Positions 22,445 to 49,869 of a stretch of DNA of 64,000 nt are shown piece by piece (the first letter of the stretch is position 1; the number at the start of each line of letters is the position of its first letter). This DNA comes from Malachius bipustulatus. Taxonomy: Eukaryota > Arthropoda > Insecta > Coleoptera > Melyridae. The notes below the pieces were generated by a model. The model did no database searches. It had not been told where the DNA came from and saw only the letters and a list, made by a program, of their open reading frames with translations. The stretch lies in contig OU342639.1 of NCBI GenBank assembly GCA_910589415.1, positions 4,348,268-4,412,267 of the forward strand. Direction: 5' to 3'. A program made the position numbers and the translations under genes.

Positions 22445-25228
22445 CTAAAACCCGCGTCTGGCTTGATGAACCAGTAAGTCCGGCAACACAGCGTCGACCT
22501 TCCCAAGTTCAGCATTGAGCGACTCGGCTTCCAACAATATGACGAGTAACTGTCCATTCATGTCATTCTCCATTAGCCAGAGCATCGAGAAAAGATGCTC
22601 GCCCAACACCTGTTCCTGTTCTTGGGGCGATGCTTGACCAGGCTCCCACGTTGACCAAGGTTTTTTGCCATGAATCTGCTCTTTGGCTTCAGCAATCGCT
22701 TGATCAACCATCTGTTTGGTTTCATCAGCCGTCTTTTTGCCTTGAACAATCAGCTCTCTGACTTGATCAGTCTGTTCTCGGATACGATCCATCAGCTCTT
22801 TAGCTTGATCAGTTGGCTCCTTGGTTGGACCAGGCTGCTGTTTGGCCTGATAAGCCTGCACGTCCTGATAAAGACCGACGACCTCCTCGACTTTAGCCTT
22901 GAGCGACTCCAATTCAGACCTCATCTTGTTAACCTGCTCGTAATTCTCAAAATGAAAGGCTACGGCCTCCGGCAAAAGACGCTCGTTCACCACCTGTTCC
23001 ACGTCTTGAGGTAGTGCTCGGTCAGCCTGCTGTTCCGCTCGACGACTTCGACGAGCCTGCTTTTTGGCTCGATCATGCTTTTGTTTCTTTAGATAAGCAT
23101 GCAGTTTCTTTACAGCGTCACCCTTCCCATCGCATGGATCAGTCTGTGATTCTGATTCGGCCTTCTTTGCTAGCTTCCAACGTTGCAAATGATCAGCCCC
23201 ATAACAGAAGTATCTCGGTGTTTCTGTGTCAACCTTCCCATCCCATGGATCAGTCTGTGATTCTGATTCGGCCTTCTTTGCTAGCTTCCATAGCTGCCAA
23301 TGATCATCATCATAACAGTAGTCTGTGTAACAGTAGTCTATCGGTGTTTCTGTGTCAACCTTCCCTTCGAATGGAACAGTCACCTGTTCGGTTTGAGGTA
23401 TCTCCTGTTGAGCTTGATCCGTCTGCTCTTCCGCTTGAGCAATTTGCTGTTTCCCTTGATGTGTCTGCTGTTTGGCTCGACCGAAGACTCTACGATGCTT
23501 CTCATGGACTCGACCATGCTGCTGTTTGGCTCGATCTCCTGGCTTCTTTTTAGCTTTGCCAAGCTGCTGTTTGTCTTGAAGCTGCAACTCAGCGACGGCC
23601 TCCTCGACTTTAGCCTTGAGCGACTCCTTATGTTCGAGCATGTGCAGCAATTTAGAATTGTCGTCTTTCAACAACATGCTGGTTATCTTACCGGCTAGGT
23701 CAGGATACATTTGCTGGATCAACGGGTAAAGACGGTCGACCACCATCCATTTCTGGTCATGAAGTGGTGCTTGATTATGCTGCTGTTTATCCTGACCAAC
23801 CTGATGTTTAACTTGAACGGTCTGCTCTTTGTCTCCAACGGTTTGTTGTTTGGCCTGATCGGCCATTTCTTTAACTTGAACGGTCTGCTCTTTGTTTCCA
23901 ACGGTTTGTTGCTTGGCCTGATCGGCCATTTGTTTAACTTGAACGGTCTGCTTTTTGTCTCCAACGGTTTGTCGTTTGGCCTGATCAGCCTTTTGTTTAA
24001 CTTGAACGGTCTGCTCTTTGTCTCCAACGGTTTGTCGTTTGGCCTGATCAGCCTTTTGTTTAACTTGAACGGTCTGCTTTTTGTCTCCAACGGTTTGTCG
24101 TTTGGCCTGATCAGCATTTTGTTTAACTTGAACGGTCTGCTTTTTGTCTCCAACGATTTGTCGTTTGGCCTGATCAGCATTTTGTTTAACTTGAACGGTC
24201 TGCTTTTTGTCTCCAACGGTTTGTCGTTTGGCCTGATCAGCATTTTGTTTAACTTGAACGGTCTGCTCTTTGTCTCCAACGGTTTGTTGCTTGGCCTGAT
24301 CGGCCATTTGTTTAACTTGAACGGTCTGCTCTTTGTCTCCAACGGTTTGTTGCTTGGCCTGATCGGCCATTCGTTTAACTTGAACGGTCTGCTCTTTGTC
24401 TCCAACGGTTTGTTGCTTGGCCTGATCGGTCATTTGTTTAACTTGAACGGTCTGCTCTTTGTCTCCAACGGTTTGTTGCTTGGCCTGATCGGCCATTTGT
24501 TTAACTTGAACGGTCTGCTCTTTGTCTCCAACGGTTTGTTGCTTGGCCTGATCGGCCATTTGTTTAACTTGAACGGTCTGCTCTTTGTCTCCAACGGTTT
24601 GTTGCTTGGCCTGATCGGCCATTTGTTTAACTTGAACGGTCTGCTCTTTGTCTCCAACGGTTAGTTGCTTGGCCTGGTCGGCCATTTGTTTAACTTGAAT
24701 GGTCTGCTCTTTGTCTCCAACGGTTTGTTGTTTGGCCTGATCGGCCATTTCTTTAACTTGAACGGTCTGCTCTTTGTCTCCAACGGTTTGTTGCTTGGCC
24801 TGATCGGCCATTTGTTTAACTTGAACTGTCTGCTCTTTGTCTCCAACGGTTTGTTTGGCCTGATCGGCCCTTTGTTCAACTTGAACGGTCTGCTCTTTGT
24901 CTCCAACGGTTTGTTGCTTGGCCTGATCGGCCTTTTGTTCAACTTGAACGGTCTGCTCTTTGTCTCCAACGGTTTGTTGCTTGGCCTGATCGGCCTTTTG
25001 TTTAACTTGAACGGTCTGCTCTTGGTCTCCAACGGTTTGTCGTTTGGCTTGATCAGCCTTTTGTCTGGCTTGACCACGCCGTTGTTTGCCTTTAGGAGGC
25101 TGTTGTTTGACTTTAACAGTCTCCTGATTGATTGAACACTCTTCACTAGCTGGACAACGTTTTGAAGGATCTTGACTAACCTTTTTTAATACACTTTGTA
25201 TTTGGTTTTCTAATTCCAAAACAATTGG
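22445..25228 (-). CDS. NCAPD2: CAP-D2 last exon: end of conserved body plus giant repetitive tail (927 residues)
   Basis: The acceptor TTTCAG opens phase 0 with [16 protein letters not shown], which continues the conserved helix of exon 13 (compare ..IIDEFEQKL in vertebrates). There is no ATG near the start of the open frame, as expected for an internal-start exon. After about 45 residues comes an array of about 20 units of 21 residues ([19 protein letters not shown]), then a Q/K-rich spacer, a duplicated module with TETP and ESESQTDP, three copies of a 55-residue [12 protein letters not shown] module, and a TAG stop. The tail is hydrophilic and nearly neutral. Typical CAP-D2 proteins are about 1400 residues with a short basic tail; here the total must exceed 2122. 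Function of the tail is unknown. Confidence 0.85.
22448..23760 (-). repeat. Three diverged copies of a 55-residue helical module in the CAP-D2 tail
   Basis: Copies lie at about 23570-23760 ([12 protein letters not shown] ... [14 protein letters not shown]), 22840-23015 ([11 protein letters not shown] ... [17 protein letters not shown]) and 22450-22630 ([11 protein letters not shown] ... [17 protein letters not shown]). Copies 1 and 2 share 28 identical bases over the SLKAKVEE codons. They are separated by Q/K/A-rich degenerate relatives of the 21-residue unit, so the tail grew by duplication at several scales. Confidence 0.75.
23115..23370 (-). repeat. Duplicated TETP / ESESQTDP module in the CAP-D2 tail
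   Basis: Two adjacent copies each encode GKVDTETP, a tyrosine/cysteine-rich stretch (CYxxDH or similar), then [16 protein letters not shown] block of over 40 bp is nearly identical between them. They hold the only TP dipeptides in the tail, minimal proline-directed kinase sites. Condensin tails are known mitotic kinase targets in other species; a similar role here is inference only. Confidence 0.85.
23815..25075 (-). repeat. 63-bp coding tandem repeat (about 20 units) in the CAP-D2 tail
   Basis: Each unit is 63 bp, encoding 21 residues; units differ at only a few bases. Variable sites include K/E/Q before MADQAK, M/N/K/R before ADQAK, Q/R after AK, and KE versus KK. One unit is 60 bp (a lost glutamine codon near 24855). 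Neighbouring units share variants (three NADQAKRQ units in a row), which indicates recent unequal exchange. All six frames stay open over long stretches because the unit is a multiple of three and lacks stops. Confidence 0.95.
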
Positions 25229-28851: not shown

Positions 28852-29122
28852 CTCCATATCTGTTTTGGCAGTTTGATTTTCGCTGCAAGCTTTTAAAATT
28901 TGCTGGAAATTGTTGTGCACATCCGGGACGTCCAAAAACGGTTTATAGTTGTCGAAATTATCCAACAGCTTATTCAACGCCTTCTTATTGTATTTAATTA
29001 GCGACAGGCAGTACGAAATATTGGCACAAAGATGGTGGTACTTTGATTCACAGAATTTTTCACAAAAACAGTCCACTAGATTCTCCATGTGTTTTATTTT
29101 TTCTATTAAATAAAACAGGAAC
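28852..29122 (-). CDS. NCAPD2: CAP-D2 exon 13 of window (end of conserved body)
   Basis: Residues 1105-1195: FLFYLIEKIKHMENLVDCFC, YHHLCANISYCLSLIKYNKK, LNKLLDNFDNYKPFLD, FQQILKACSENQTAKTDME. It matches the last conserved helices of CAP-D2 (A.CVSQLPL...LRKMLDNFD). Ends in phase 0 at GAG/GTAAAA; without splicing a stop follows four codons later. The next acceptor in phase is at 25229. Confidence 0.93.
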
Positions 29123-32657: not shown

Positions 32658-32825
32658 CTATTAATCATTGCATCCATCCACGGATCTACGATATGAGGAT
32701 ATCTTTGCAGCAAATCTATTCGACGTATTATTGTAATTTTAACAAGAGGGAACTTCGATTCCTCCAGAAGTGTGAGAAGTACTTTCAGATGATCATCACA
32801 AAATTCACTTGATATCATCATGTAC
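32658..32825 (-). CDS. NCAPD2: CAP-D2 exon 11 of window
   Basis: Residues 952-1007: FCDDHLKVLLTLLEESKFPL, RRIDLLQRYPHIVDPWMDAM. The FCD..L..L...LE.S..P and FP.LVDPW motifs are characteristic of the CAP-D2 C-terminal HEAT domain. Phase 2 in and phase 2 out, donor GTAAGA. Confidence 0.93.
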
Positions 32826-32929
32826 CTATAAAGTAATCTCATTTAATAACATAACCTATTTCCTCTCAGAAGAAGCAGAACCAATGATGCGATAACATCA
32901 TGCAGTCACATATTATGAAAACAAAATTG

Positions 32930-33115
32930 ACATTAGGCGAGCGGACGGTAGCTCGACGGGTTAGAGTGCAGACTACTAAGCCGTTGGAGACTGCCACTGT
33001 CTGGGTTCGAATCCCAGTCTTGCCATTTGTAATAAAAATGTGTCTGTGGCTGAATGAGCTATTTCTCGAAGCCAAATTACCAGAGTGGTAATATCTTTTA
33101 GTTCGATGCTTTTTT
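32930..33115 (+). mobile_element. tRNA-derived SINE (plus orientation)
   Basis: The head reads GGCGAGCGGACGGTAGCTCG with an A-box (TAGCTCGACGGG) and B box (GGTTCGAATCCC), ending TTGCCA, as in a tRNA gene with a damaged acceptor and anticodon arm. The body GTGTCTGTGGCTGAATGAG, CTCGAAGCCAAATTACCAGAG matches the SINE at 27430-27690. It ends in a T-rich stretch near 33110. It lies 30 bp from CAP-D2 exon 10. Confidence 0.75.
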
Positions 33116-33144
33116 TTTAATTGACAATAATAATTATTACTTAC

Positions 33145-33341
33145 TGAAGTAGTGATACAACTGCATTATCCTGAATAACCTCTTCGTTGTACCGATTCGG
33201 TCGCTGACAGATGTTGACAACAATGCGAGCGAGTTTACTCAGGCCACCCGAACCGGTCACTGTGTCCTTTTCCAATATGTTAAGGATGAACTCAGCGTCT
33301 TCATCTTCGACCAGGGCACCTTTTATTTCGAACTCTTCGTT
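33145..33341 (-). CDS. NCAPD2: CAP-D2 exon 10 of window
   Basis: Residues 887-951: NEEFEIKGALVEDEDAEFIL, GGLSKLARIVVNICQRPNRY. This is the conserved acidic-to-HEAT transition of CAP-D2 (compare E.GLVGA..DD.EAE in vertebrates). Acceptor TATCCAG, donor GTAAGT, phase 0 in and phase 2 out. Confidence 0.92.
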
Positions 33342-33406
33342 CTGGATAAATTATAAAGTTCATTATTAGAAAATTATTAAGACACGAGTAATAAATTCAG
33401 ACATAC

Positions 33407-33703
33407 CGATGTCTGAATTGGTAAAGATTCCCCACTTATGCTTGATCCTTCACTTGCAGAGTGACGATATTTCTTGATGATTGGCTTATTATCGCGTTTG
33501 ATTTTTCTTCTCTTCAAATCTCTGTAGTCTTCATGTCCTAAAACTTTCGTCTGCCACAGAGATATTGCACGAAGCAACACACAAATCCTGGTCAAAACAA
33601 ACATCTGAACTTCCCGTTCTCCATTCTCTGTGACATAAGCAGCCACTGCCGCTATTACCGTCGTCATTATTTCTTCACATAGTTTTTCAGGTTTTGAACT
33701 TGT
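33407..33703 (-). CDS. NCAPD2: CAP-D2 exon 9 of window
   Basis: Residues 788-886: KPEKLCEEIMTTVIAAVAAY, QMFVLTRICVLLRAISLWQ, then a basic, serine-rich linker (DLKRRKIKRDN, YRHSASEGSSISGES). In other species this position also holds a variable basic linker before the EEELG..GA block. Acceptor CTCAAG, donor GTATGT, 99 codons, phase 0. Confidence 0.9.
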
Positions 33704-33756
33704 CTTGAGGGAAAAAAGCAACAGAGAATTCACATTAAAAAAGTATCGCCCATATA

Positions 33757-34110
33757 CCGAGTGTAACATAAGTACTGCGAAAGATTTCAGGGGGTGATTC
33801 CTGAGATCATTTCAAGAAAAAAAGTTGATATGAACATGGGTCGGAAAATGATTAAAAGTTGGGGTAATTTTTACCCCACACCCCTCAGATTTAACCCACC
33901 CTTGGTGAAAATTTCAAAGTGATCTACAGTCTATCTTATTACTCTCATTAGGCATAAAAACATTGATGGATGGGTAAATTTCGGCATCTTATGTTGAACG
34001 GTTTCGGCGATAATAAATAAAAACCTTCGTCAGGGTCCCAACTTTAAGGGGCTATCTTTCGATCAATCGCAAGGGCCTGAAATCTTTCGCAGTATTTATG
34101 TTACACCTGG
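33757..34110. mobile_element. MITE, 354 bp, TA-flanked
   Basis: Left end CCGAGTGTAACATAAGTACT, right end TATTTATGTTACACCTGG, with inner match TGCGAAAGATTTCAGG / CCTGAAATCTTTCGCA. Flanking TA on both sides. No ORF. It has an internal near-palindrome GGGGTAATTTTTACCCC (about 33862). Confidence 0.85.
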
Positions 34111-34299
34111 TATAACAGAATTCTTCAGGAAAATATTAATATTAGGTATTAAAATATTATGAACATTTATATGAACACTCTTAACCTCAATGATGACTCC
34201 CAGGTTGTAAATGTGAATGCGGGATTATATTTAATTATAGTAATTATTAAATACAAGACAACAAGCATAAAAACCGGCAACACTAAGCAGAGCAGGGAG

Positions 34300-35560
34300 T
34301 TGAAGAACTTGATCTCCCAACTTTCTACAATGACCTAAACAATGAATCGTGGGTGGAGATTGAAAAAATGGCAGACCTTATGAGCACCCTGCACCTAATT
34401 GAACTCGTAAAAAAGGCATTCAGAAGTTATAAGAGAACTAAAAAAAATCCAGCTGAGAAATTATGCATTAGCGGCCATCTATTTCAGACACACAAGTTCA
34501 TTTTTGAGACACTGTATCCTGGAAATGGACCAACTATCCTCATACTACTGGAATCAACAAAGGCTTTGCGATGTGCTACCGGGCAAATTACAACACGTTG
34601 GTGCTGGTGAAAAATGGCCCTGCGGGTTTGAAACTTACCTTCAAAATGAATGTGGGATAATGAAAACAGTACTGAACAGTGTTCCACACGGAAGCATTCT
34701 GGGCCCTCTGCTGTTCATGACTTATGCTGATGACACACAAACTTATACAAGTTGCAAATTAAACTAAAATAAGGAATTGACGGAAAACTTTAATAGACAG
34801 TGTCAGCCAAAAAGTTTGCACCATATTAAAAAAATAAAATTTCCATCTTTTTTGAAAATTTTTTGTCATAACTTTGTGCTTTTCAAAGGAATTTTTTCTG
34901 GCCACCTCATAAAAAAAATTATTTCATAATGTAACGTTACATTAGTGTGATATCTAACGAATTTTGGTCAAATTTCCAGCAAAACACTTTTGGTTTTCGA
35001 AATATCATGTTTTTTGTAATTTTGAAGTTTAGAAATAAACGACATTTACTATGGAACTAAACTTCCCACCAGGGATCTCAGTGTACTCAAATTTAATCTT
35101 TCGGAAAGCACAAACATGTGACAAAAAAAAATTCAAAATAGTTGCAAAACAAAAAATTTTCCCATATGATCCGAACTTTTTGGCAGGCGCTAAAGATATG
35201 AAAAACTTTGCACGTAACTGCTTGAAGGTCGACCCCGGCTGTTGTTTTTGGTCACATACAGTGCTCGACGACGACAATTTTATGAACAGTCATAGATTAC
35301 TTTATCGATCCTGGATAAACACCGATCCTGGATAACACCAACACCACAATGGAAAAAAGTGAAAGTGCAAAGAACCTGGGGGTATTTTTCGATAGTAGCC
35401 TGGCATTTAGTGCTCATCGAAACCTAAATGCCTTTACCACCTAAAAGATATTTGATATAAAAACACGAAATTACAACTCGTTGAGAAAATCTGGTACTCA
35501 ATTTGGATGCTAGAAGAGACCTGCACTACCATTGTCAAACGCATAAAATCGTTTTACCGA
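34300..35560 (+). mobile_element. Degraded non-LTR reverse transcriptase fragment, split by a MITE
   Basis: Recognisable pieces are NSVPHGSILGPLLF and YADDTQTYTSCKL (34680-34765), then after a MITE SAKNLGVFFDSSLAFSAH (35355-35410). They are the RT catalytic region and thumb of a CR1/Jockey-type element, out of frame with each other. Earlier sequence (34330-34610) is too decayed to assign. Confidence 0.65.
34796..35190. mobile_element. MITE inside the degraded RT fragment
   Basis: Imperfect inverted arms: CAGCCAAAAAGTTTGCACCA mirrors a right end reading ...GAACTTTTTGGCAGGCGC; inner blocks TTTGTGCTTTTCAAAG and CGGAAAGCACAAACA also mirror. TA is present at both edges. No ORF. Confidence 0.65.
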
Positions 35561-35698
35561 AACAACCATTTTTCGAAGTTCCTGTCACAATGTAAACAAA
35601 CACAGACACACACACACATCAGATGAACTCTCCATACCAAAACACAATGCAGAAAAATTATTATTACTATTATTAAAGAAATATTGCCATAAACCTAC

Positions 35699-35938
35699 CC
35701 TGTAAATCAAATCAATTGCAGATACTATTACTTTTGAAAAATGCATTTTTGACACAAAAAATTCTTCCGCGAGGAAACGCAGCAAGTTCGTAAAAATTGG
35801 ATCCTTGTTCACAATCTTGAATGCGAGACTTTTCATGCCCACTTTTCGGATCCCCGCAACTTGAAGGAAATCGAAACACGCGGACATGAACAAAGCGTCC
35901 TCTACTGCCCTTTGTGAAAATGCTTCGTCTGCCACAAC
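35699..35938 (-). CDS. NCAPD2: CAP-D2 exon 8 of window
   Basis: Residues 708-787: VADEAFSQRAVEDALFMSAC, PIFTNLLRFLAEEFF, VIVSAIDLIYR. Acceptor TTTTTTTCAG, donor GTAGGT, exactly 80 codons, phase 0 on both sides. Upstream intron is 9.2 kb (35939-45102), nearly all MITEs and retrotransposon pieces. Confidence 0.88.
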
Positions 35939-36055
35939 CTGAAAAAAAAACACATTTACACAAACCGAAAAATTTATTCATTTATTTCATATATTTATTT
36001 ATTTACTGTCAACAGGCACAACCCTTTCTTTATTCATTGAGGAATATATTATATA

Positions 36056-36923
36056 CAGGGTGTCCCAGCTTATTCGAAGCGGTCCTGTAGGCCAAACGAT
36101 GGGACTTTTTCAAAAAACTTTTTGAAAATTCAAGTACAGAATCACAATGGCCATAATTTAAAATTATTGTGGAGTATACAGGGTGTCCCATATGACAGTG
36201 GCATATCAAAGTTATGTTTTTTTAAATGGAATGCTCCTATGTTATTGCATTTTTAGATTGTCTGAGAAGAGAAAATAAGATTGGCTTTCACAGTTGGTGT
36301 TTAAATTCAGAAGTTTTTGAGTTATAAACAAGTGAAAATCGTCATTTTTGAAGTTCAATGCCCTGTACAACGAAAACGGCTAAAGATAGAGAAAAATGGC
36401 TTACATGTCCATATTTTACTTTTTCATGTACTATCCTATGATGTAGATGAAATGTTTATACAGGGTGATAAAAAATTTGAAAAAATCTGAGATTACTCCA
36501 CGCGTCGCCAAAAGAAAAAATCAAAGAAAGTACAAATGTTTCTATACCATAGGATAGTACATAAAAAGTTAAAATAGGGACATGTAAGCCGTTTTTCTCT
36601 ACCTTGAACCGTTTTCGTTGTGCAGGGCCTTGAACTCGAAAAATGACGATTTTCACTTGTTTATAACTCTAAAACTTCTGAATTTAAACACCTACTGTAA
36701 AAGCCAATCTTATTTTCTTTTTTCAGACAATCTAAAAATGCAATAACATAGGAGCTTTCCATTTAAAAAAACATAACTTTGATATGTCACTGTCATATGG
36801 GACACTCCAAAATAATTTTAAATTATGGCCATTGTGATTCTGTACTTGAATTTTCAAAAAGTTTTTCGAAAAAGTCCATCGTTTGGCTTACAGAGACCGC
36901 TTCGAATAAGCTGGGACACCCTG
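36056..36923. mobile_element. Palindromic MITE, 868 bp
   Basis: TA-flanked CAGGGTGTCCCAGCTTATTC and exact mirror. Arms of about 400 bp match nearly throughout. About 120 bp inside, the left arm has an inner terminal-like CAGGGTGTCCCATATGAC; the right arm mirrors TGTCCCATATGAC but lacks CAGGG, so one arm has a 9-bp indel. Its inner part is related to the MITE at 56625-57474. Confidence 0.9.
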
Positions 36924-36990
36924 TATATATTTATATAACACTGATGTTAGTAATGGGTTATAGGTCAATGAGAAGTAAGACTCTTTTCTC

Positions 36991-37035
36991 TGGCCAAGCT
37001 TTCGGAAATATTTTATTCCTTCTTCAGGGCAACTA
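36991..37035 (-). ncRNA. Hammerhead-like motif, left arm of palindrome
   Basis: Minus strand: GCC, CTGAAGA, a GGAA...TTCC stem-loop, GAA, AGCT, T, GGC. The core residues and order fit a hammerhead with a vestigial stem III (palindromic AGCT), which could act only as a dimer. One mismatch in stem II compared with the right-arm copy. Confidence 0.4.
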
Positions 37036-37496
37036 CAAGATCAAAAAACTACAGTTATAATAATATGTTACATCACTATTTTACAAGTAAGTACTTACGA
37101 AATTTGAGGTTAACTCTTATAGTTCTTAAGTAAATTGAATTAAAATGAATGAGACTACACATTGTTAGACTAATAAAAACACTTTTAAAACTAACTACAC
37201 ATTTACAGGTCAATTAAAATTACATATCTTAACAATTAAATTAGCTACTAGAAACGAGTCCCCGAGATCGAGATCTAGTAGCTAATTTAATTGTTAAGAT
37301 ATGTAATTTTAATTGACCTGTAAAAGTGTAGTTAGTTTTAAAAGTGTTTTTATTAGTCTAACAATGTGTAGTTCTCATTCATTTTAATTCAATTTACTTA
37401 AGAACTATAAGAGTTAACCTCAAATTTCGTAAGTACTTACTTGTAAAATAGTGATGTAACATATTATTATAACAACTGTAGTTTTTTGATCTTGTA

Positions 37497-37543
37497 GTTG
37501 CCCTGAAGAAGGAATAAAATAATTCCGAAAGCTTGGCCAGAGA
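37497..37543 (+). ncRNA. Hammerhead-like motif, right arm of palindrome
   Basis: Plus strand: GTTGCC, CTGAAGA, stem II GGAAT/ATTCC around AAAATA, GAA, AGCT, T, GGCC. Stem II is fully paired here. Stem III is reduced to AGCT, which would favour an intermolecular dimer. Activity is not shown. Confidence 0.45.
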
Positions 37544-37686
37544 AAAGAGTCTTACTTCTCATTGACCTATAACCCATTACTAACATCAGTGTTGTGTTCT
37601 AGCGAAGGTCATTACTTCCCAAAGGGTGTATATTTATATATATATCTTTAAAGAAGTAACACTGTTACTACGTGATTGACGTGTCT

Positions 37687-37730
37687 AAATTGTAACGGGA
37701 TAAACAGAACTGTTTATCCCGTTACAATTT
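37687..37730. repeat. Perfect 21-bp-arm hairpin
   Basis: The arm AAATTGTAACGGGATAAACA (plus G) is followed by a 2-base AA loop and its exact complement. No mismatch in 42 bases, in contrast with the diverged palindromes nearby; it is flanked by AT dinucleotide runs (37630-37650 and 37731-37742). Confidence 0.9.
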
Positions 37731-37749
37731 ATATATATATATGTATATA

Positions 37750-38591
37750 CAGGGTGTCTCTAAAAGGTACCACCAACGTTCTACCACAGATTCCCGAGGA
37801 AAAAATATGCCGATTTAACCGAACTTATCCATGTCCAAAGTTGTACCCTTTTCAAGATACAGCCCTTAAAAGGGGGTCAACTAAATACTCATTTTCCAGA
37901 ATAAGTCAAAAATGGTTTAAACGAGAAACTTCAAAATTTCACCACCTACTACCTACTATTGTTAAGACCAATTACTGAACTTTTTGCGCCCTTATAAAAA
38001 TTTTGTATCTTGCATGGTTTCCCCGTCATTAATTTTCAATGATACACCCACAATGCTGAAAACGTATTTGAAAAATGTAATTTTTACTTAAAATTAATTA
38101 AATTTTATTTCACAAAAATGACTTTAAATATCAGGATAAATCTTATCGGTTGTTTGATTCTGCTTATCATTGTACGCAATCTAATTTGAATATTTGCAAG
38201 ATACAAAATTTTTATAGGGGCGCAAAAAGTTCAGTAATACTTCAACCTTTAGATAAAAAATACAAAATTAATCAGTGGCGTGCGGATAAAAAAGTTCTGG
38301 GGTCAAACGTGAGACGCGACATCAAAAATAGGAACACCCTGTACGTCAATGTTTGTAAGACTACGTCAGTTTATTGGTCTTAACAATAGTAGTAGGTGGT
38401 GAAATTTTGAAGTTTCTCGTTTAAACCATTTTTGACTTATTCTGGAAAATGAGTATTTAGTTGACCCCCTTTTAAGGGCTGTATCTTGAAAAGGGTACAA
38501 CTTTGGACATGGATAAGTTCGGTTAAATCGGCATATTTTTTCCTCGGGAATCTGTGGTAGAACGTTGGTGGTACCTTTTAGAGACACCCTG
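37750..38591. mobile_element. Palindromic MITE, 842 bp
   Basis: TA-flanked CAGGGTGTCTCTAAAAGGTA and exact mirror. The outer 230 bp of each arm are nearly identical (GTACCCTTTTCAAGATACAG and mirror); the middle is less symmetric but includes CAAGATACAAAATTTTTATA mirrored. No transposase. Confidence 0.9.
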
Positions 38592-38595
38592 TATA

Positions 38596-38616
38596 TGTGT
38601 GTGTGTGTGTGTGTGT
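38596..38616 (+). repeat. (TG)n microsatellite
   Basis: About ten TG units directly abutting the right end of the MITE at 37750-38591. Confidence 0.9.
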
Positions 38617-38867
38617 AACTACGAAGGCGTAGAAGCCCCACACCAGTTTTATTTTTTTAAATTCCGAGTTAAAACTCGGAATTCAGAGTTCAAACTAAGA
38701 ATTCTGAGTAGGGTTGGGCCTAGCAAATGTGCCATGCGTGCCCGCACGCAGGCGGAAAGTTCATAGGGACGGCGGGCGGAAGCAAAAATACAATCATAAT
38801 TCATAGCAATAATAAAAAAAAATCAAAATATCATGAATTAGTTATTGTATAGCCGAGTAAGCGGGGT

Positions 38868-38985
38868 GGAGCGTGAAGCATCCTGGGCATTTTTCCACAA
38901 TATACAGATAAGAGCCTTTCTAACCACAGGGTTAATAGGGCTGTAGCCCAGGGGCTCAGCCTTTCGGAGCGCAATGTTTTATTGA
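38868..38985 (+). repeat. Dispersed repeat, second copy of 30325-30450
   Basis: Shares TTTCTAACCACAGGGTTAAT and AGGGCTGTAGCCCAGG with the copy at 30 kb. Sequence to the right (38986-39553) is AT-rich then mixed; I see no gene or element ends there. Just upstream (38655-38705) there is a small mirror-like cluster of ACTCGGAATTC phrases. Confidence 0.55.
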
Positions 38986-39553
38986 AGTAATTTTGCTTCT
39001 TATTCTTATTCTGTTATTATTTTTTTGTTATTTTATTAGTCATTTAGTTATTAGTTTTCACATCCGAGTAAATTTTTAATTAGTGGAAAATTGTGTGACT
39101 TTGAACATTCAAAATAATTTCGCCTGCAGCGCATTTTCTTTGGAGTCTTACAAACATTACCTTTATAGTATTAAGTTCAGAATCCATACTGCACTAACTT
39201 TGTAATCCATCAATAGTCACTGGCTTGTTCCCGGCGTTACATCCTATGTATTTTCTTATGAAAAAGGGTGCATTATTTTCAGTCACCCTTGGACACCGAA
39301 TATCTTAGGACAACTCTGGCCTGTATGGACAACCGCGGAACGCCGAACCCGATTCACTTGTTTTATAATAAAAGTAGGTAACGAAGGCTTTGGCCTTATC
39401 GAGACCAGATGTTGGCTCTGGATCTAACGTAACTCCATTCAACTCTAAGGGTGTTTCACCAGCAGACCGACAAAGCTTAAGGGTAGGTGTAGTTTTCAAG
39501 GCGATTCAGGATCTCGTTTTGAAATTTTTCCGAGGCCCTTCGTTTCGATGTTA

Positions 39554-39710
39554 CAGGGTGATTCATGCATTTTACTGAAATGATGAGCAGTATCTTTTGA
39601 TATGCTCTAACAATGACACTTAATACCTCGTATTTTTCGCTGATTCGAAAACTGCAGGGTCGTACCTAATTTTTCAGGTCTCTATCGATTTTGTCAAAAA
39701 ATTCACCCTG
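39554..39710. mobile_element. Short MITE, 157 bp
   Basis: TA-flanked CAGGGTGATT and AATTCACCCTG ends. Only the terminal 10-11 bp are mirrored, unlike the long palindromes. The following 39711-40318 shows no recognisable gene or repeat. Confidence 0.65.
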
Positions 39711-40318
39711 TATGCATTTTCTTCAAAGTTTAGTACCATTTTCTAAAACTACATGAAAAATGCTACAATTGCGGTAAAAAAAACTTGGCACCATTTAATG
39801 AATCGAGAAGAAAATAAAAATTATGCACTACGGGAGGGGAAAGGGACAACAGTGCTCGTGTCCATGTCAATGGCACTGCAACAGAGTACCTAGTACTTAC
39901 TCAACAAGAGTTCGAGAAAAACCACGGTCCAATGTGCACCTGTACGAGAACCGAGCGAACCCCCGTCGCATCCTGCATCGCGACGGTATGGCCGCGATAG
40001 CGGAATAAAAGCTCTTAGCTGGCTACATGGGATGTTATGGGTGCATAATTCTTATCCTATAAGTTATACCCTATAAATTGCTCCCCAAATTAGTTCCACT
40101 GGTCCTTTGAATCTTCTAAACTAATTAACTTAAAAAACGCATGACTTATTATGCAAATAGAATAAATGAGTTCTTGAAAGTATAGTCCAAATCTAAATAA
40201 TCAGCTGTTCTCTTTTATTTACACATACACAGCCACCACTAATGCCACAAATCACTTTATGTCTTCCACTTCCAATAATTACAACTGACTGACTAGAGTG
40301 CCGACAGCTCTTATTATA

Positions 40319-40957
40319 CCGGGTGTCCCAACACTAGTGTCCACCCCCTAAATCGAGCTTAATTTTAAAGATAAAAAATTGAAACTTTGAGGATTTGTCT
40401 ACTTGATATAGGACCACGGAATGGCATAATCAGTTTAATTAAAAAAAATTTAGTTCGGGCGCCAGCGATAAAAAACTGTAAGATGGTGGTAAATTGTCGA
40501 AAAAAAAAATTGATTTTTTTTCAATACATACGTAGAAATCGATTATTAAAATCAATATCGCTTGAAAGAAATGTGAAAAAACTAATTATAAGGCTTTAAT
40601 AAAATAAAATATAATTATAACGCAATGACAGGTAGACAATATAATCTGAACAATATAATCAATATAATCTGAAAACGGTAGGTGCAATAAGTTTTATGAC
40701 AAAGTAAATAAGGCCCAAATAAATAGAAGGACGGGTCTTGCTGGGCTAGCCGGCACAATGAACCTGCACTGAACAGTGTCGTAGTATGGACTCATGAAAA
40801 AGGTGATTAATAAAAATATATTAAAAATGTTTTTTAATGAAACTAATTATGCCATTCCGTGGTCCTATATCAAGTACACAAATCCTCAAAGTTTCAATTT
40901 TTTATCTTTAAAATTAAGCTCGATTTAGGGGGTGGACACTAGTGTTGGGACACCCGG
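40319..40957. mobile_element. Palindromic MITE, 639 bp
   Basis: TA-flanked CCGGGTGTCCCAACACTAGT and exact mirror. Arms of about 130 bp match nearly perfectly (ATATAGGACCACGGAATGGC mirrored near 40850); the centre is AT-rich. No ORF. Confidence 0.9.
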
Positions 40958-41004
40958 TATACCCGTTGGCCGAAGGTCTACAAATGTCTGATAGTTCTAG
41001 GCAA

Positions 41005-41435
41005 TCTCGAACATGCGTAAAACGCAGAACCATTCTGGTATTTAGTAGACTCTCTTGCACTGGCCTGGCGTTGTGTCACTCCTGTCATGTCAGCTGAGAA
41101 CCGTCTCGAATTGAATTGCCGAGTAATCACAACAATAATTGTAGAAGGTAAAGATAAACAAAAACAAATACGAATTACGAATCCAGAATACTTCGCTAAT
41201 GCTCCCTTGTTATAATATTATAACGACAAATAACCCACCTTCGCGAACAATTGCAGATACGTATTTGTTTACTTCCTCATTTTTTATGATAGCTCACTCA
41301 GCCAGACATGGAAATGACACTTTCGCGACAATTCTAGTTATATGACAGGCATGACACATTTACGGCCAATGTGACCAGTTCTACTAAATACCAGAATGGT
41401 TCCGCATTTTCCGAGAGCGTGTCTACTGACACGCC
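41005..41435. repeat. Foldback element with diverged arms
   Basis: Arms 41012-41112 and 41330-41435 share GAACCATTCTGGTATTTAGT and mirror, TGTCAT/ATGACA blocks and AATTGTCGCGA-like sequence. Spacer is about 215 bp. Ends not resolved. Confidence 0.65.
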
Positions 41436-42050
41436 GGAGGCTTCGACGGCGCGCCATGGAACTATATAAGAACCACAGTGGCCGGAGACGAGTCAGTAGT
41501 AACTTGGATGTGAATGTGAAAGCTGAAGTATCACAGAGAAAGGAAGACACAGAGTAGTCAGTAGTAGTATTTAGTGACAGTGAAGTGTGAAGTAGAAAAC
41601 AGAGTGAAGTATACTGCCGTGTTAACCGTAAACGCCGTAAGTGACAATTTTCTCATTTTCGGCTTATTGGATGTTCTGATGGGACTTTCTATTCTCTATC
41701 TATTACCATAAGCGAAAACGCCGTATCTCCATCCTAACAGCTATAAATCGCTAATTTAGTTCGCCGTATTTGCAGGTTTCATCAGTTCTCTAGAGCATTT
41801 TACCGTATGTTCATTTTATTAGGGAAGTTTGCCGTATCTGTAAGCATAATATGCAGATACGGCATAAATGTTAAATAAATTTAATACGTATATGAGTAAT
41901 CCTGATCGAAAATGCCGTATCTAGAAAATAACCAAGTAAGATACGTAGTTTGTTTTATTTATTTCAAAGAATAATAATAAAAGTAATAATAATACAATAA
42001 TAATTGTTTTACCGAAAGTACTTAGGTACTTTAATAACGTTAGAAAAATA

Positions 42051-44281
42051 CATAATAATAAAATTGTGTGTGCATCTACCATAAGTGCTCGGAAACAGTA
42101 AAAGATACAGGGTGGGTTAAATTAGAGAAAAGTTGCACAATTTTATGCTTATTAAGAATCTGAAAGAAAATTTATGGATACTTCTCCGGCGTTGCTGAAA
42201 TATCCTGAAAAAACTTGAAAATGGAGATTTCTTATTTCAATCATATCTTTTTTATTATTGAAAAGAAATTGAAATATTTTTGTAGGTTTACTTTAAAAAG
42301 GCATCATCTGCCATTTCCAAATTTTTCAAGGACTACTAGATCCCAGAATTTTCATTGTCAACTTTTGGTTTTCTTATGGCCGCCATGTTGTTTTTCATGC
42401 CTTCGCTATTAAAAAAATCTAAGAAATAAAATAAATAATCTATCACATTCAAAAAAAAAAAATTCTTCCAAATTTTTGTTCTTCTTTTGTCGGAAAAATA
42501 ACCTTTGTTTAACCGAATGGTTTAACCGAAACCTAAAAAAACCCATAAGGCAAGCAATATCAAGTCGCAACGTCATAATTGACGTTATTCGGTGAAATTT
42601 ATTTATTTATTTATTTATTTATTCAAGCCAACAGGGTAAAACCCCATACAAAAATAATAAACTATTATACATATTAGAAAGATAGCAAATGTACAAATAT
42701 TACAACCTCATGAATTACTCATCTATATTTCAACAATATTTTTGACATATTTTTAATAGAGTGGAGTGAACTGGTACTTGGCTCAAACCACCGTGCATTA
42801 TCATTACATATTCTCGATAATCTATCTAGTATAGTCTCATACTGGCCTGGTCTTATTGTATCTACGAGGAATATTTGGTTATTATGACGCAATGTTCTTG
42901 GCGGAACATAAAATTTCAGATTACCTAAAAGTTCAGGAACATCCAGAGAATTTGATAATAATTTGTAAACGAAAACAATATCGGCTCTGTTCATAGCAGA
43001 TTCGAAAGTAGCTAACGAAAATTTGAGATAGAGTCGACTAAGATCATGGTCAAAAAAAGAAACAAAAATACCAATTTTGGAAGCTGCAAACCTCAAAAAT
43101 CTTCTATTTAGAGATTCAATTTTACCTTTCAGTCCAATTTCATTCCTTCTCCAGACAACCGATGCATACATAACTTTTGGAAAAATGAAGGAAAAATATA
43201 ACGATCTAAAAGTAGATATATTCCCAAAAGAAGATGAAAACCTCTTGATAAAATATACCCCCCTAGTAACCGAAAGGTGAATATGGTTAATATGTTGTTT
43301 AAAAGAAAGTTTAGAATCGAAAATGACTCCAAGATCTCTGACGGACTCGCTGAAAGATACAACATTATCATCCAAAAAATACGGGAGTAAACTCAATTTA
43401 CTAGATCGACCAAAGCGGATGTGATGGCATTTTTTTATGTTGATGACCAATCCATTCAGCCTGCTCCACTCTTGAAAGAGTAATAAATCACCTTGAAGCA
43501 AATCCATATCATCATATCCACGAACAGCTCTGAAGAGTTTAGCATCATCAGCAAAGAGTAATATCTCGCAATTTTTTAGATTTCCTACTAAATCATTTAT
43601 AAAAATAGCAAATAGCAATGGTCCCAAATGAAGTCCTTGTCCAACACCAGAAAAAACTGAAAAAACATTAGAGTAACAATTTCCTATTTTGACGACCTGC
43701 TTTCTATCCGTCAAATACGATTCCAGCCATTTCAACAAACTACCGTTAATGCCATATGCATAAAGTTTCTTAAGTAACAACTGGGTGTTGACAACATCGA
43801 ATGCTCTAGATAAGTCCGTATAAATTGCACGGAAATTATTTTCTTTTTTTGCGAATAAAGAATAAAATTTTTAAGAATTTTTTTTTAATTTGATAGATTG
43901 TTTCCTTGAATTTTTCAATAGCGAATAACACGAAAAAACAATATGGCGGCTATAAGAAAAACAAAAGTTGACTATGAAAACTCTGCGATCTAGCAGTCCT
44001 TGAAAATTTTGAAAATGACAGATGATAGCTTTTGATGACTTATGTGAACCTACAAAAATATTTTAATTTCTTTTCGATGATAAAAAAGATATGATTGAAA
44101 TAATAAATCCCCATTTTTAAGTTTTTGCAGGATATTTCAGCGACGCCCGAAGTTTCCATACATTTTCTTCCAGATTCTTAGTAAGCATAAAATTGTGCAA
44201 CTTTTCTCTAATTTAACCCACCCTGTATCTTTTACCGTTTCCGAGATCCCAATGGTGAGCATCGAATTGTTAACCATCCTG
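42051..44281. mobile_element. Palindromic MITE with an inserted retrotransposon fragment
   Basis: Right end GGTTAACCATCCTG before TA; left end decayed (GCATCTACC, CTCGGAAACAGTAAAAGATA mirror). Inside lies a TACAGGGTGGGTTAAATTAG / CTAATTTAACCCACCCTGTA mirror shared with the MITE at 19505-20481. Arms are split by the RT fragment 42597-43850. Confidence 0.75.
42597..43850 (-). mobile_element. 5'-truncated non-LTR retrotransposon fragment with open RT frame
   Basis: Minus-strand frame open from about 43845 to 42719 (355-375 codons): TDLSRAFDVVNTQ, SYLTDRKQVV, FADDAKLF, VRDLGVIFDSKLSF and the C-terminal LYFSFIFPKVMYASVVWR region. The usual PQGS motif is altered (GVGQGLHLGPLLF) and YADD is FADD, so it may be inactive. 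The 3' end is a (TTTA)n run at 42597-42625. 5' truncation is typical of target-primed retrotransposition. Confidence 0.8.
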
Positions 44282-45102
44282 TATACGGCAAAAGCTCCTA
44301 GTATGTATAAGATATTTTTAACTGAAAAAACGGTAAGTTCATTTACGGCTAATCTATCTATTTTTCCTTTGAATATATTGCCGTAAGTGATTTTTTGAAA
44401 AAAACTGCAGTTTTTTAGAAAAAAGAATACGACTAAATAAAATTAGGCATGTAAATAATAACTTATGGAAAATCAGGATTCTCAAAGATAACAATTGTGA
44501 ACGGCAGATGGCAAAAGACAAAAACGTAAATATCTCAAAACTACTAAAATGTAGATACGGCGTTTAGGGTTAACACGGCAGTATAGACAAGTGGTGTAAT
44601 ATCTGTGTGGAAATAAGAGGACATATTTGGATTTAAAGCTTATAAGTTTATAAATAAGTTGTACTTGTGTTGGAGAATAAAGACATTTGCAGACTTTAGT
44701 GGCGATTTTATAATTGTGAGATCCGTAACAATATTATTAAAAAAATAAACTAGAAAAAGTAGATGTCATTGACAATTCTTTGAAATGGATCGAGTTTTAT
44801 CTTAGAGACAGAAAATTAATGGTAAAAATAAAAAATTACCAATTTTTTTTTGAAGTTTTATCATGAGTTAAGAATGAAAAATAATTCAAGTGAAATTTAC
44901 GAAGCCCCTGCCATTTTGAAATGTTTCAATCACAAAAAATCATTTAAAAAAAACCTCTGTTGCAGTTCGAGTAACTCGGGAGACTTTTCAATTTTTGCAT
45001 TTTGCTCGTTACGGGCCTTTGCTTATCATTTAATCAAACTGCAACACAGAGATGTGAAAATGACACAAAAAAAAACCTCTCGTTTTTCAAGTGAAAACTT
45101 AC

Positions 45103-45355
45103 CTTAATATTTGTACCAATAATTGCTCCGCTACCCAAAGCAGCCATCCGCAGCAGAATCAGGGCAGATCGAGAAACTGACTGTGTTACCGGTACTTTCT
45201 GGGAAAAATACTGCCACAGCTTGTCGATCATAACATCTCTTAGTGTCCCCATGGCTGTCCATTCTGCTATCAACGCTTGGAGATCACCAATGTTAGCTTC
45301 TGGTACTTTGTTTAGTAATGCAATTAAGCGATTGACTACTGTGGCCGCATGCTCC
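45103..45355 (-). CDS. NCAPD2: CAP-D2 exon 7 of window
   Basis: Residues 623-707: EEHAATVVNRLIALLNKVPE, AEWTAMGTLRDVMIDKLWQY, SALILLRMAALGSGAIIG. The last block matches the LLGMMARG-type HEAT helix. Acceptor TTCCAG, donor GTAAGT, phase 2 in and phase 0 out. The intron upstream (45356-49714) holds a pogo-like element split by two other transposons. Confidence 0.9.
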
Positions 45356-45707
45356 CTGGAATAGAATCAAATTATTGCAGTTTTTCAACAAGTACTTAGG
45401 TACAGTACTCTCGGGAATGGACATACAGTGAAAACCGATTATAACAACATCGTTTAGTAAAACGTTCTGGATATAACAACCAAATGTTGAAGTTCCATTT
45501 TATTTTAATCTCATAAAATCGCCTTACATAGAAACCGTTTAGTACGACATCGCTTATTGCGACGTATCGGTAGTAGCGACGTAGTGATCTTGGATTTTTC
45601 ACGGAATCGTGTCGGTTATAACGACCGACGGATGTTTATGCTGTAAAATCTGAATTGATTTACTCTATCCCTAAAATCTAAAAACATGATAAAAAATTAA
45701 AATTGTA

Positions 45708-48244
45708 CAGGGTGTCCCAATTTGCTTGATTTTGGCTGTTTCGGCCATTTTCAGGCCAGATAGAGAAAAAGTAACTCAAGTGTCTAGAGCTCGATTTTCG
45801 TGAAACGCGAAAATGTGAAAACAGCATCGAGATATCTCTAACCGTTTCCGAGATATCGGCCAATTTTGACATTTGACAGATTTTGAAAAAGTGTCATAAC
45901 TTTTTTATTCGTGATTATTTTTTCATGCAATAAAAACTTTCCACAGGCACTTTTAAAATCAGAATGCAATGCATTAATCAAGAAAATTTTATCCCCCTTG
46001 GATTTTGAGATAATACGACATACTTTCTTATTTTAAATGTAAATCATAGTTGGCTTTGACTTCAAAAAATCACAAAAAAATCAAGCTTCATAAAAAATAT
46101 ACGGTCGGGGTACTTTATAACATCATCTGAGAAAAAAAATCAATATTTAAACTAATTTCTAGTTGGCTGTGAAAATAGGTGTCAAAAATTAATTTGACAA
46201 AAGGTTGTCTCCTTCAGTTAATTATAATATTTATTTAAAATGCTAAATTAAAAGAAAATATTAATTTTTAAATATTATAATTTACCGACAATAATAATAA
46301 TTATTACTATCATAATACTCAACAGGGTTCGTGCAAAATATTTTTTGCATTACATATGTGTAAAGTACCCACCTAGCTTTTATTACAAACTTATATTACA
46401 AAAACCATACGTGTAACAGTTCCAAATCTAGGAAACTATAAATAATGTTCAAACAGACCACCATTTTTATCTAGACAAACTTGGCATCTTCTTTTAATTG
46501 ATTTCTCAGCATTTAATAACTGCAGAGGAGTTATATTGTTTATTGCCTCTACGACTCTTTGCTCTAAGTTTTCTAAGCTCTCTACTGGTGTTTGAAATAT
46601 TTTACTTTTCAAGAAGCCCCAAATAAAGAAATCTAATGGACTGAGATCAGGTGACCTTGCAGGCCAGAGCACGGGTCCTCGATTTTCTATCCATTTGTGT
46701 CCAAACATGTTGTTTAATTTGTTTGTTATGGCTAAAGCGTTGTGCGCTGGCGCTCCATCTTGCTGGAAAAAGATTGTATTCAGATTTGCAAGAGGTATAT
46801 TTTCAAGGAAAGGCTCAACTATTTCTTCTAAAATATGAAGATATCCTCGTGCATTTAAGTTCTCGTGATAAATAAACGGCCCTAATATCCTTTGCCCTTG
46901 AACTTCGAGCCAAACGTTAAAGCCGAATCTTCCTTGCATATTTCTATCTTGACGGATGTGTTCATTGTGATCTGACCAATGATGTCGATTATGTCTATTG
47001 AAAATGCCACTAACTACTACTTGTTATCCTGGCTTCATCAGTCCAGATGACATGGCGCGCAAAATTTTCATTCGCGTTGCATTGTCCGATAAACCAATTG
47101 CAAAAAACTCTTCTACGATCAGGATCACCAGGAAACAACTGATGAGTTAACCTAACTTTGTATGGCTTATATTTATTTTGTTTTAAAATTCGCTGACTTT
47201 GGCTTCGACTGACACCTGTAATCTGAGCGATTTCCCTAGTGGAAATCTCAGGATTTTCTAAAACTGTTCCAATTACATTTGCAGCTGTATTGTCTCTTTC
47301 CCGAATTCGGTATTGCTTCTCTCGTGGCTTTATAAAAGATCAATGACTTATCAAATTATTTTCTAATCGTGTGAAGATTTGTGCACTGGGTTGCTGGCGC
47401 TCAGGATACCGTTCAAAGTATAAGTCGCCCGCAGCTCCAGAGTTTCGTCCAGATTCAATATAACACACCAGTATTTGATATTTTTCATAATGTTGGAACA
47501 TTATTTCAAAAATAGCAGCCCTAACCACTAAGAATAGAACAAGATTCAAACGAAATATTGCAGACTAATCAATTAATACTAGTAACTGTCAAACTGAATT
47601 GCTAACCTCAGTTTGCCAAACAATTAATCATGCACAGCCCACTAACTAAACGCTGTGTAAAATATTTCTATATTTTTGTCTAGTTACTAATTATTATTGT
47701 ATTTCGGTTATGAACTGTAAATAATTAATAATGTTCTTTAGGGAGACAAACTTTTGTCAAATTAATCTTTGACACCTATTTACACAGCCAACTAGAAATT
47801 AGTTTAAATATTGATTTCTTTTCAGATGATGTTATAAAGCACCCCGACCGTATATTTTTTATGAAGCTTGATTTTTTTGTGATTTTTTGAAGTCAAAGCC
47901 AACTATGATTTACATTTAAAATAAGAAAGTATGTCGTATTATCTCAAAATCCAAGGGGGATAAAATTTTCTTGATTAATGCATTGCATTCTGATTTTAAA
48001 AGTGCCTGTGGAAAGTTTTTATTGCATGAAAAAATAATCACGAATAAAAAAGTTATGACACTTTTTCAAAATCTGTCAAATGTCAAAATTGGCCGATATC
48101 TCGGAAACGGTTAGAGATATCTCGATGCTGTTTTCACATTTTCGCGTTTCACGAAAATCGAGCTCTAGACACTTAAGTTACTTTTTCTCTATCTGGCCTG
48201 AAAATGGCCGAAACAGCCAAAATCAAGCAAATTGGGACACACTG
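45708..48244 (-). mobile_element. Tc1/mariner-type transposon with 500-bp inverted repeats
   Basis: TA-flanked ends CAGGGTGTCCCAATTTGC / GCAAATTGGGACACACTG. The inverted repeats run about 45708-46212 and 47741-48244, nearly identical throughout. Between them is one minus-strand transposase pseudogene. The long repeats and CAGGGTG ends link this autonomous-type element with the many palindromic MITEs in the window. Confidence 0.85.
46436..47620 (-). pseudogene. Transposase of the 45708-48244 element, broken
   Basis: N-terminal part (47549-47340): YEKYQILVCYIESGRNSGAA, YFERYPERQQPSAQIFTRLE, a helix-turn-helix of the kind found on many insect Tc1/mariner-type transposases. Middle (47340-47030): ISTREIAQITGVSRSQSQRI, RVFCNWFIGQ, VIWTDEARI. 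C-terminal part (46939-46436): FFQQDGAPAHNA and WPARSPDLSPLDFFIWGFLK, the second and third catalytic sites, then VVEAINNI. Stops or shifts occur near 47340 and 47030. The element cannot now make full-length protein. Confidence 0.8.
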
Positions 48245-48434
48245 TACATACCTACCTGTATCCTAAAAAATTAATAAATTTTTTGCAGATAAATATTTGA
48301 AATTGTGATGCCTTTATTGAAGTATTATTTATTTAAACCTCTTAATTCTTTGAATTTACATACATAATATCAAGTGGTATGTGGTATCACTTGGAAAAAA
48401 TGTATTTGATTGCCTATAACGACTATCGGCTATA

Positions 48435-49619
48435 CAGGGTGTCTGGGAAAATGTGGGAAAACTCTCGGAATCAGATAGAACTTAAAAAAAAGATGCCAAG
48501 TTCCCATAACTTTTTTTCCTAGCGGCCCTCCCTACGGAGATACGGCCTCCTAACCACTGGAAATCAATTTTTCTTGAATAACTTTTAAACTACTTGATTA
48601 AAATTAATGAAAATTTTAAATATCAAACAGTAGTAAGGACCTCTTAAAATACTGCCCCTAAAACATAAATTAGCTTGTTCAGTTTAGCAGGGACGGACTA
48701 GGTTGTACATTTTAATGCTTAAATTTTTAACACCCTGCATGATAAGGAGTAAAAAAAAAACAAATTTGGATACCTTGAACATTAAGCTACAGAAAAGGTA
48801 CTCTTGTTCCTTGTCGATAAAATGGACCGTTTTAAATAATAAAAGAATGACAGCCAATATTATAAAGGCTCATTAGGCTAACGGGCAGATTTCTGTGACC
48901 ATTTTTGAAGCTAATATCGACGTCAAATGACTTTGATTAACATTTTTGTGATTACTTTCATGTCAAGAATAGATAAACTCAAAAAATTTCCACTTAGACT
49001 CGATACCTTCTTCAGAAATGGCCACAGAAATCTGCCCGTTAACTGCTTAATGAGCCTTTATAATACCCGCTGTTAATGTTTCATTTCTATTACATGTACT
49101 AGAACTACGATTGTTGAACCCACTTATGAAATTTTTTATTGATTATGAAATAAAACATTAATTCTTTTATTATTTTTTTTTCTCGAAAACGGTTAATTTT
49201 ATCGACAAGGAACAAGAGTACCTTTTCTGTAGCTTAATGTTAAAGGTATCCAATTTGTTTTTTTTTTACACCTCATCATGCAGGGTGTTAAAAATTTAAG
49301 CATTAAAAAGTACAACCTAGTCCGCCCCTGGTAAACTAAACAAGTTAATTTATGTTTTAGGGGCAGTATTTTAATTAAATTTTTAATTAAAAAATTAAAA
49401 AAATTTAAACAGTCTTTATTACTGTTTAATATATCAAATGTTCATTAAATTTAATCAAGTAGTTTAAAAGTTATTCAAGAAAACTTGATTTCCAGTGGTT
49501 AGGAGGCCGTATCTCCGTAGGGAGGGCCGCTAGGAAAAAAAGTTATGGGAACTTGGCATCTTTTTTTTTAATGTTTTATCTGATTCCAAGAGACTTCCCA
49601 CATTTTCCCGGACACCCTG
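48435..49619. mobile_element. Palindromic MITE, 1185 bp
   Basis: TA-flanked CAGGGTGTCTGGGAAAATGT and mirror CCCGGACACCCTG. Arms near 450-550 bp match closely (GGAGATACGGCCTCCTAACC and mirror; GGAACAAGAGTACCTTTTCT and mirror). No ORF. Confidence 0.9.
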
Positions 49620-49714
49620 TATAACGACAGCATATTGATGGTCCCCTCAATGTCATTACATCCGGTTTTCACTGTATTTTTTTTTAAACTTTCTGCAAAT
49701 AAACTGAAACTTAC

Positions 49715-49814: not shown

Positions 49815-49869
49815 CTAAAAGATAAAACATTAATTAATTAGAAAAAGAAAAAAGTAACACAGAGTTTAC

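Follow-up and report, generated by a model that had tools for sequence, protein, structure and literature searches.

The last exon of a CAP-D2 gene of Malachius bipustulatus (copy A) carries an open frame for a tail of repeats and MLLE-derived sequence, and we consider the gene a likely chimera in which a diverged CAP-D2 copy was fused to a duplicate of the end of a neighbouring poly(A)-binding protein (PABP) gene and the linker was expanded. The chimeric gene is most likely of fairly recent origin. A second tailed gene (copy B) lies in tandem with copy A, and a compact CAP-D2 gene is present elsewhere in the same genome; compared with the latter, the tailed copy A is judged not to be the housekeeping condensin subunit.

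The last exon and the CAP-D2 body of copy A

The features on the CAP-D2 side of copy A in the window (the whole stretch of 64,000 nucleotides of contig OU342639.1 that was analysed) are as follows; a slash marks a splice border.

22445..25228, minus strand: last coding exon of CAP-D2 copy A, 927 codons and stop
25181..25228, minus strand: 16 codons with homology to the first codons of the compact gene's last exon (alignment)
25175..25186, minus strand: candidate in-exon 5' splice site AAAAAG/GTTAGT following codon 16 (copy B: GTTTGT)
28852..29122, minus strand: penultimate CAP-D2 exon, donor GAG/gtaaaa
29652..29942, minus strand: CAP-D2 exon, Pfam Cnd1, E 1e-12
32660..50623, minus strand: nine more CAP-D2 exons, coordinates being approximate cores (32660-32842, 33144-33341, 33413-33709, 35699-35938, 45103-45357, 49714-49815, 49871-50176, 50242-50385, and 50447-50623)
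62796..63839, minus strand: long CAP-D2 exon (core)

The frame of the last exon runs on the minus strand from 25228 to 22448 and is followed by a stop at 22447-22445 (ORF reading). The acceptor at 25228 reads aatctgtttcag/CCAATTGTT and joins, in phase 0, the donor at 28852, which reads ACAGATATGGAG/gtaaaa (GAG/gtaaaa in the exon table); both are good splice sites. A sequence-only reading had described a 927-residue exon joined in phase to the CAP-D2 body, and this was confirmed; the compact gene has the same phase-0 junction. Its statement that the first residues complete a conserved CAP-D2 helix also held: of 14 residues compared with the beginning of the compact gene's last exon, 10 are identical.

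The body of copy A corresponds to condensin subunit 1. The joined exon translation, a query containing X spacers and ragged ends, scored 143.7 bits against PDB 6qj3, and the homology runs along the HEAT body. The exon after 29652-29942 gave a Cnd1 match below the Pfam cut-off (13.9 bits). Copy A extends past the window, with an exon core at 64016-63879 and a start-codon exon at position 75378 on the window scale. In copies A and B, the exon borders that were compared have candidate GT/AG sites; exon 32660-32842 of copy A has a weak acceptor, and some borders were not modelled exactly. The second coding exon was not located in either copy A or copy B.

No tRNA genes were found in the 64-kb window using ARAGORN. 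Two minus-strand frames in CAP-D2 introns, at 42722-43870 and 46439-47339, we take to resemble a LINE reverse transcriptase and a Tc-type transposase, respectively. The last intron of copy A contains nested inverted repeats with arms of up to 94 nt (25495-27897) and shares only 195 bp with the corresponding intron of copy B.

The repeat array and the MLLE domain of the tail

The tail of copy A is composed of the following features.

23805..25064, minus strand: tandem array, 20 x 63 bp (95% matches, score 2149)
23591..23776, minus strand: MLLE domain 1, tail residues 485-546, recognisable as a PABP C-terminal domain
23117..23322, minus strand: 111-bp duplication (VDTETP...SESQTDP), 1.9 copies (repeat search)
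22835..23017, minus strand: decayed MLLE piece 2, residues 738-798, without 12 domain residues
22448..22633, minus strand: decayed MLLE piece 3, residues 866-927, with the same 12-residue gap

The 63-bp unit corresponds to 21 residues, or three heptads, and its 20.0 copies occupy 1,260 of the 2,784 bases of the copy A exon. At 45% of the exon, the array does not bear out the earlier description of the tail as mostly tandem repeat. Nor does the tail appear to be a hydrophilic repeat alone, as had been described; it is better read as a PABP-derived module with one or more MLLE domains. When 98 residues of the array were modelled by themselves, from the single repetitive sequence, the prediction was one continuous helix with a best pLDDT of 93.9 (the five models gave 93.9, 89.7, 88.4, 75.7, and 32.3).

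Variants in the array were examined in 38 units (14 from copy A and 24 from copy B), each of 21 residues and lying between two matched unit starts; units with N in the first position and others were excluded. No codon-position bias was found among the variants of these 38 units (14/19/22), and amino-acid constraint on the array was rejected on this ground. The 27 distinct variants comprised 9 synonymous and 18 nonsynonymous changes and no stop versus 1.8 stops expected, and the zero is not significant alone. Position counts do not mark coding here, because a stop-bearing relic array on contig C2 (43 units, 3 distinct stop variants, position counts 23/32/63) has a greater position-3 excess than copies A and B.

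MLLE domain 1 (MLLE1) matched the Pfam MLLE family with an E value of 2e-24 (85.7 bits versus a cut-off of 27) and PABPC1 in the PDB with an E value of 2e-19. Its fold was modelled together with 14 further sequences, and the block pLDDT values were 84-90 over residues 21-80, with a mean of 74.4 when the loose ends are included. A Foldseek search with this model gave 47 matches, and the 24 PDB chains at E ≤ 0.001 (rmsd 0.6-1.9 Å) are titled as PABP, PABC, or MLLE structures. The copy A tail combines a Pfam score above the gathering score with a predicted MLLE fold. No RRM was found in it using Pfam, and it does not qualify as a poly(A)-binding protein.

MLLE domains bind PAM2 peptides via the KITGMLLE helix. 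When the 17 PAM2-contact residues named in PMC2854688 were tallied by hand on the alignment, the neighbouring PABP kept 17 of 17 and MLLE1 of copy A kept 10 of 17, which is short of the full PAM2-binding set. The changes include Gly563 to Val, Phe567 to Tyr, and Glu587 to Lys, where Gly563 belongs to the Phe pocket; the KITxMLL core is retained. Rrm4 MLLE copies with Ser or Arg at the Phe-pocket Gly are described as altered in PMC9249222. Since 7 of the 17 PAM2 contacts differ, including the Phe-pocket Gly, we expect MLLE1 to have kept the fold and changed the ligand.

The MLLE1 core and the neighbouring PABP are identical at 160 of 183 bases (23 differ), and the proteins are 75% identical. 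The dS, dN, and dN/dS values of this core (61 codons) against PABP were 0.147 (5 synonymous differences), 0.135, and 0.92, respectively. With its flanks (92 codons), MLLE1 gave a dN/dS of 0.70 and a dS of 0.43, similar to the dS of 0.42-0.55 for the other MLLE pieces including flanks. The cores of pieces 2 and 3 of copy A and of the copy B MLLE, which share the 12-residue gap, gave dS values of 0.27-0.41. With some reserve, these cores look older than the MLLE1 core, in a comparison confined to the 61 codons of the latter.

Three CAP-D2 genes and the neighbouring PABP gene

A search of the assembly (544 Mb, 52 contigs) with the tail as query gave 24 matches; 49 of 83 candidates were scored. 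Three CAP-D2 genes were found in the assembly: copy A, copy B, and the compact gene on contig C6. Copy B is placed in tandem, upstream of copy A, with a body exon at C17:4461285-4462325 and the tail at C17:4437644-4440445, and all 12 CAP-D2 exon queries matched both loci. Its tail is open for 934 codons, contains about 37 repeat units, and ends differently from that of copy A. The compact gene lies at about C6:23181109-23189445; its frame continues from the helix directly into its own tail and stop, within a 96-codon last exon that is basic and acidic and carries neither the repeat nor an MLLE. The modelled exon borders agree among the three genes, and the last exon starts CAG/CCAATTGTT in phase 0 in all three.

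Against the condensin structure PDB 6qj3, the C6 gene scored 204 bits and copy B 124 bits. The C6 gene is taken as the canonical CAP-D2 because its score is the highest of the three. The protein identities of copies A and B to the C6 gene are 58% and 57%, respectively, and A and B are paralogues. The basic and acidic C-terminal tail present in the C6 gene is replaced in both, so that copy A lacks it. The repeats had been assigned to the condensin subunit, and one part of this assignment stands: they lie within a CAP-D2 reading frame, as indicated by the homologous start, the same place of the acceptor, the same layout in copy B, and the lack of an early Met. The other part, that the housekeeping subunit carries them, does not stand, since the genome also holds an ordinary-ended CAP-D2 and the tailed genes are two fast-diverging duplicates.

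Blocks of strong protein divergence between copies A and B (exons 49871-50176, 50242-50385, and 35699-35938) adjoin an exon that is identical in protein (29654-29941), a pattern that suggests patchy gene conversion or local fast evolution. At C6:2282021-2282523, two fragments with a stop in each match the long CAP-D2 exon with 53-54% identity and are probably a CAP-D2 pseudogene remnant.

An apparently complete PABP gene in three exon blocks (C17:4475233-4491394) is located on the same strand, upstream of copy B; its first exon was identified against the PABP consensus. The stop codon is at C17:4475230-4475232, and the first coding exon of copy B lies about 5.4 kb further. Among the 120 matches listed, the closest to the last 372 residues of this PABP were from Henosepilachna, Tribolium, and one more (87% each). 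The copy B tail ends ...QAKEEAASQMKKE-stop and the PABP ends ...QAKQQAASQIKKE-stop. Over the last codons, the stop, and the first UTR bases, 58 of 64 bases match between the two, and the next 226 of 295 bases match in the 3' UTR. The 3' end of copy A gave short matches to PABP only, of 47 and 48 bp with 79-81% identity. By these alignments, the part behind the 16-codon helix is replaced by PABP-like sequence, consisting of a heptad array and then MLLE, and copy B additionally carries what reads as the PABP stop codon and 3' UTR.

We propose that a segmental duplication, or the insertion of a copy of the PABP 3' end, put the PABP end in frame behind the CAP-D2 helix. The AHQAKQQ peptide around the last codons of PABP would have seeded the repeat, the linker would have expanded, and the whole fused gene would afterwards have been duplicated in tandem. 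The best ungapped match between the array and the last codons of PABP covers 16 of 21 bases (maximum of 15 in 500 shuffles), which is suggestive only of these codons as the seed. Copy A may later have obtained a fresher MLLE core from PABP, perhaps via gene conversion; with reserve, the sequences fit an old capture of the PABP end and a later renewal of the core in copy A.

Related sequences occur at other loci. A third, frameshifted copy of the end of the copy B tail, with matching 3' UTR, is at C17:4433302-4433717. Two relic tail arrays with stops and a frame change are at C2:51183293-51186977, flanked by 577 and 743 bp of CAP-D2 intron 99% identical to the intron in the window; the surrounding 40 kb yielded no exon of the CAP-D2 body, and the locus reads as a recent copy of the intron and array. 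An intronless 606-residue frame at C14:16517397-16519214, which has an MLLE domain and in which PABP-type RRMs are recognisable by eye, is probably a PABP retrogene. At three places, repeated TDQAKQQ-like heptad units precede a decayed MLLE piece (RDLERVVNEHLLPEAL...), and some of this sequence contains stops.

C4:7518268-7522184: heptad/MLLE-like module
C2:59496109-59497164: heptad/MLLE-like module
C17:2312605-2312787: heptad/MLLE-like module

We read these pieces on C4, C2, and C17 as further copies of this type of module at other genomic loci.

Alternative readings and comparison with known proteins

Copies A and B could be surplus CAP-D2 copies that are losing function, the open tail being a young leftover without a functional tailed protein, and we regard this as rather unlikely. 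The dN/dS value between the bodies of A and B was 0.81 for 12 exon cores and 0.87 for 10 cores (e49b and e33 left out), and because of these values, which are near 1 as expected of decaying duplicates, constraint after the A/B duplication is seen as weak. The values of A and B against the C6 gene were 0.32-0.33 and include older history. In the first 60 tail codons, A and B differ by 7 nonsynonymous and 0 synonymous changes. Loss of function would also fit the lower conservation of A and B relative to the C6 gene, the changed pocket of MLLE1, the truncation of the other MLLE pieces, the array without codon-position constraint, and the stops in the related array pieces on C2. However, the 242 differences between A and B in 1,155 aligned body codons include no stop versus 9.5 expected (P ~7e-5) under a simple neutral expectation that takes no account of gene conversion. 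Moreover, the exon borders of both copies have candidate GT/AG sites, and the tails are open for 927 and 934 codons despite different repeat numbers.

It is much less probable that the repeat frame lies outside the CAP-D2 mRNA, either with an exon 14 of 16 codons that ends at AAAAAG/GTTAGT (25181) and is spliced to a site further downstream or with the frame as a separate gene. The in-exon donor has a score of 9.0 on a simple scale, and homology to the compact last exon stops at about codon 16, as a short exon 14 would have it. However, the donor GTTAGT of copy A is replaced by GTTTGT in copy B and in one of the C2 pieces, and by GTATTA in the second C2 piece, and the compact gene is read without a break from the helix to the stop of its own tail. 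A separate gene is opposed by the lack of a Met before tail residue 140 in copy A and residue 120 in copy B, and by the copy B frame, which ends at PABP's own stop. The intron preceding the last exon is 3,623 bp in A and 1,516 bp in B with just 43 + 152 bp in common, and this leaves little conserved sequence to accommodate a promoter or first exon of a separate gene. With the donor unconserved and no early Met, a separate gene or a skipped exon was judged unlikely. The three-exon joined protein gave only exon-by-exon matches (9) in the genome, and no processed copy of a fused mRNA was found by this search. An assembly artefact joining CAP-D2 to a PABP-derived repeat is hardly credible. Long near-identical repeats are hard to assemble, and the array length may be inexact, but the same junction is found at two loci that differ in divergence, repeat number, and 3' ends, without Ns, in an assembly of 544 Mb in 52 contigs.

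The reading that we prefer, a fusion of a diverged CAP-D2 copy with the end of PABP, was compared with known systems. Copy A resembles CAP-D2 (NCAPD2, Ycs4) in its body exons, Cnd1 match, and last-exon start, whereas the normal C-terminal tail of CAP-D2 is replaced by 911 residues derived from the repeat and MLLE. The last 113 residues of human CAP-D2 contain a domain that is responsible for chromosome targeting and for binding to histones H1 and H3 (PMC3155556), and deletion of the CAP-D2 tail had little effect in frog egg extract (PMC9797191 and PMC9433093). The MLLE/PABC domain of PABPC is similar to MLLE1 of copy A (75% protein identity), and copy B keeps the PABP stop and 3' UTR; in contrast, PABPC has RRM domains, which are absent from the fused part, and 7 of the 17 PAM2 contacts are changed in MLLE1. 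UBR5/EDD/HYD and the fungal Rrm4 (three MLLE domains) are, like copy A, non-PABP carriers of MLLE. According to PMC9249222, Rrm4 likewise mixes canonical and pocket-altered MLLE copies, and only UBR5 and Rrm4-type MLLE proteins besides PABPC1 were counted as described in 2022. UBR5 and Rrm4 are other host proteins, whereas in copy A the MLLE is fused to a HEAT subunit of condensin, in what looks like a recent event.

A homologue search with tail residues 470-927, under a length rule that placed full tailed CAP-D2 outside its reach, gave 462 proteins. In the 120 matches listed, RRM Pfam domains were present in all except Patiria miniata LOC119735791, and no condensin-named protein was found among these 120 of 462, most rows being nameless. 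The Patiria protein, a sea star database gene model, has a multiplied PABP C-terminal segment with six MLLE units behind another N-terminus and is an apparent further capture and multiplication of a PABP end; unlike copy A, it is without a helical array. Its N-terminus is presumably TRIM-like, judging by its Pfam list. The available parts of the sources on duplications of condensin I subunits in insects mention no tail exchange. Among the open-licence papers listed, we found none with both 'condensin' and 'MLLE' and no fusion of condensin to a PABP docking domain, in agreement with the earlier remark that no CAP-D2 with such a tail has been described.

In regards to function, the HEAT body of a tailed protein would still bind the condensin kleisin, and the basic tail, which is chromosome-targeting in human CAP-D2, would be gone from the tailed copies. 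A helical arm of about 420 residues, which would measure some 60 nm if it were straight, would present the MLLE fold. This fold would dock a peptide ligand, and with the Phe pocket altered the ligand is unlikely to be a canonical PAM2 peptide. The tailed copy would serve as an additional condensin I subunit, perhaps specific to certain tissues, and the compact gene would do the housekeeping. We infer the long helical arm, the entry of the body into condensin, and the tissue-limited expression from sequences and models. A more far-reaching proposal, which we hold to be doubtful, is a second, lineage-specific condensin I in which the CAP-D2 tail was traded for the helical arm and a re-specified MLLE; the MLLE would then tether condensin either to the mRNA/poly(A) machinery, through a peptide partner, or to a new target, and PABP would re-supply the domain by conversion.

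If the protein is made, a condensin subunit with a PABP docking domain appears to be a new combination of known parts. The fusion seems to have been caught fairly young, with the likely donor adjoining and the donated stop and 3' UTR readable in one copy, and the unfused CAP-D2 in the same genome serves as a control. The locus would be a clear case of a gene gaining a new end through fusion with a neighbour and repeat expansion. If expressed, it would offer a direct test of whether the exchange of the CAP-D2 tail gives condensin a new address.
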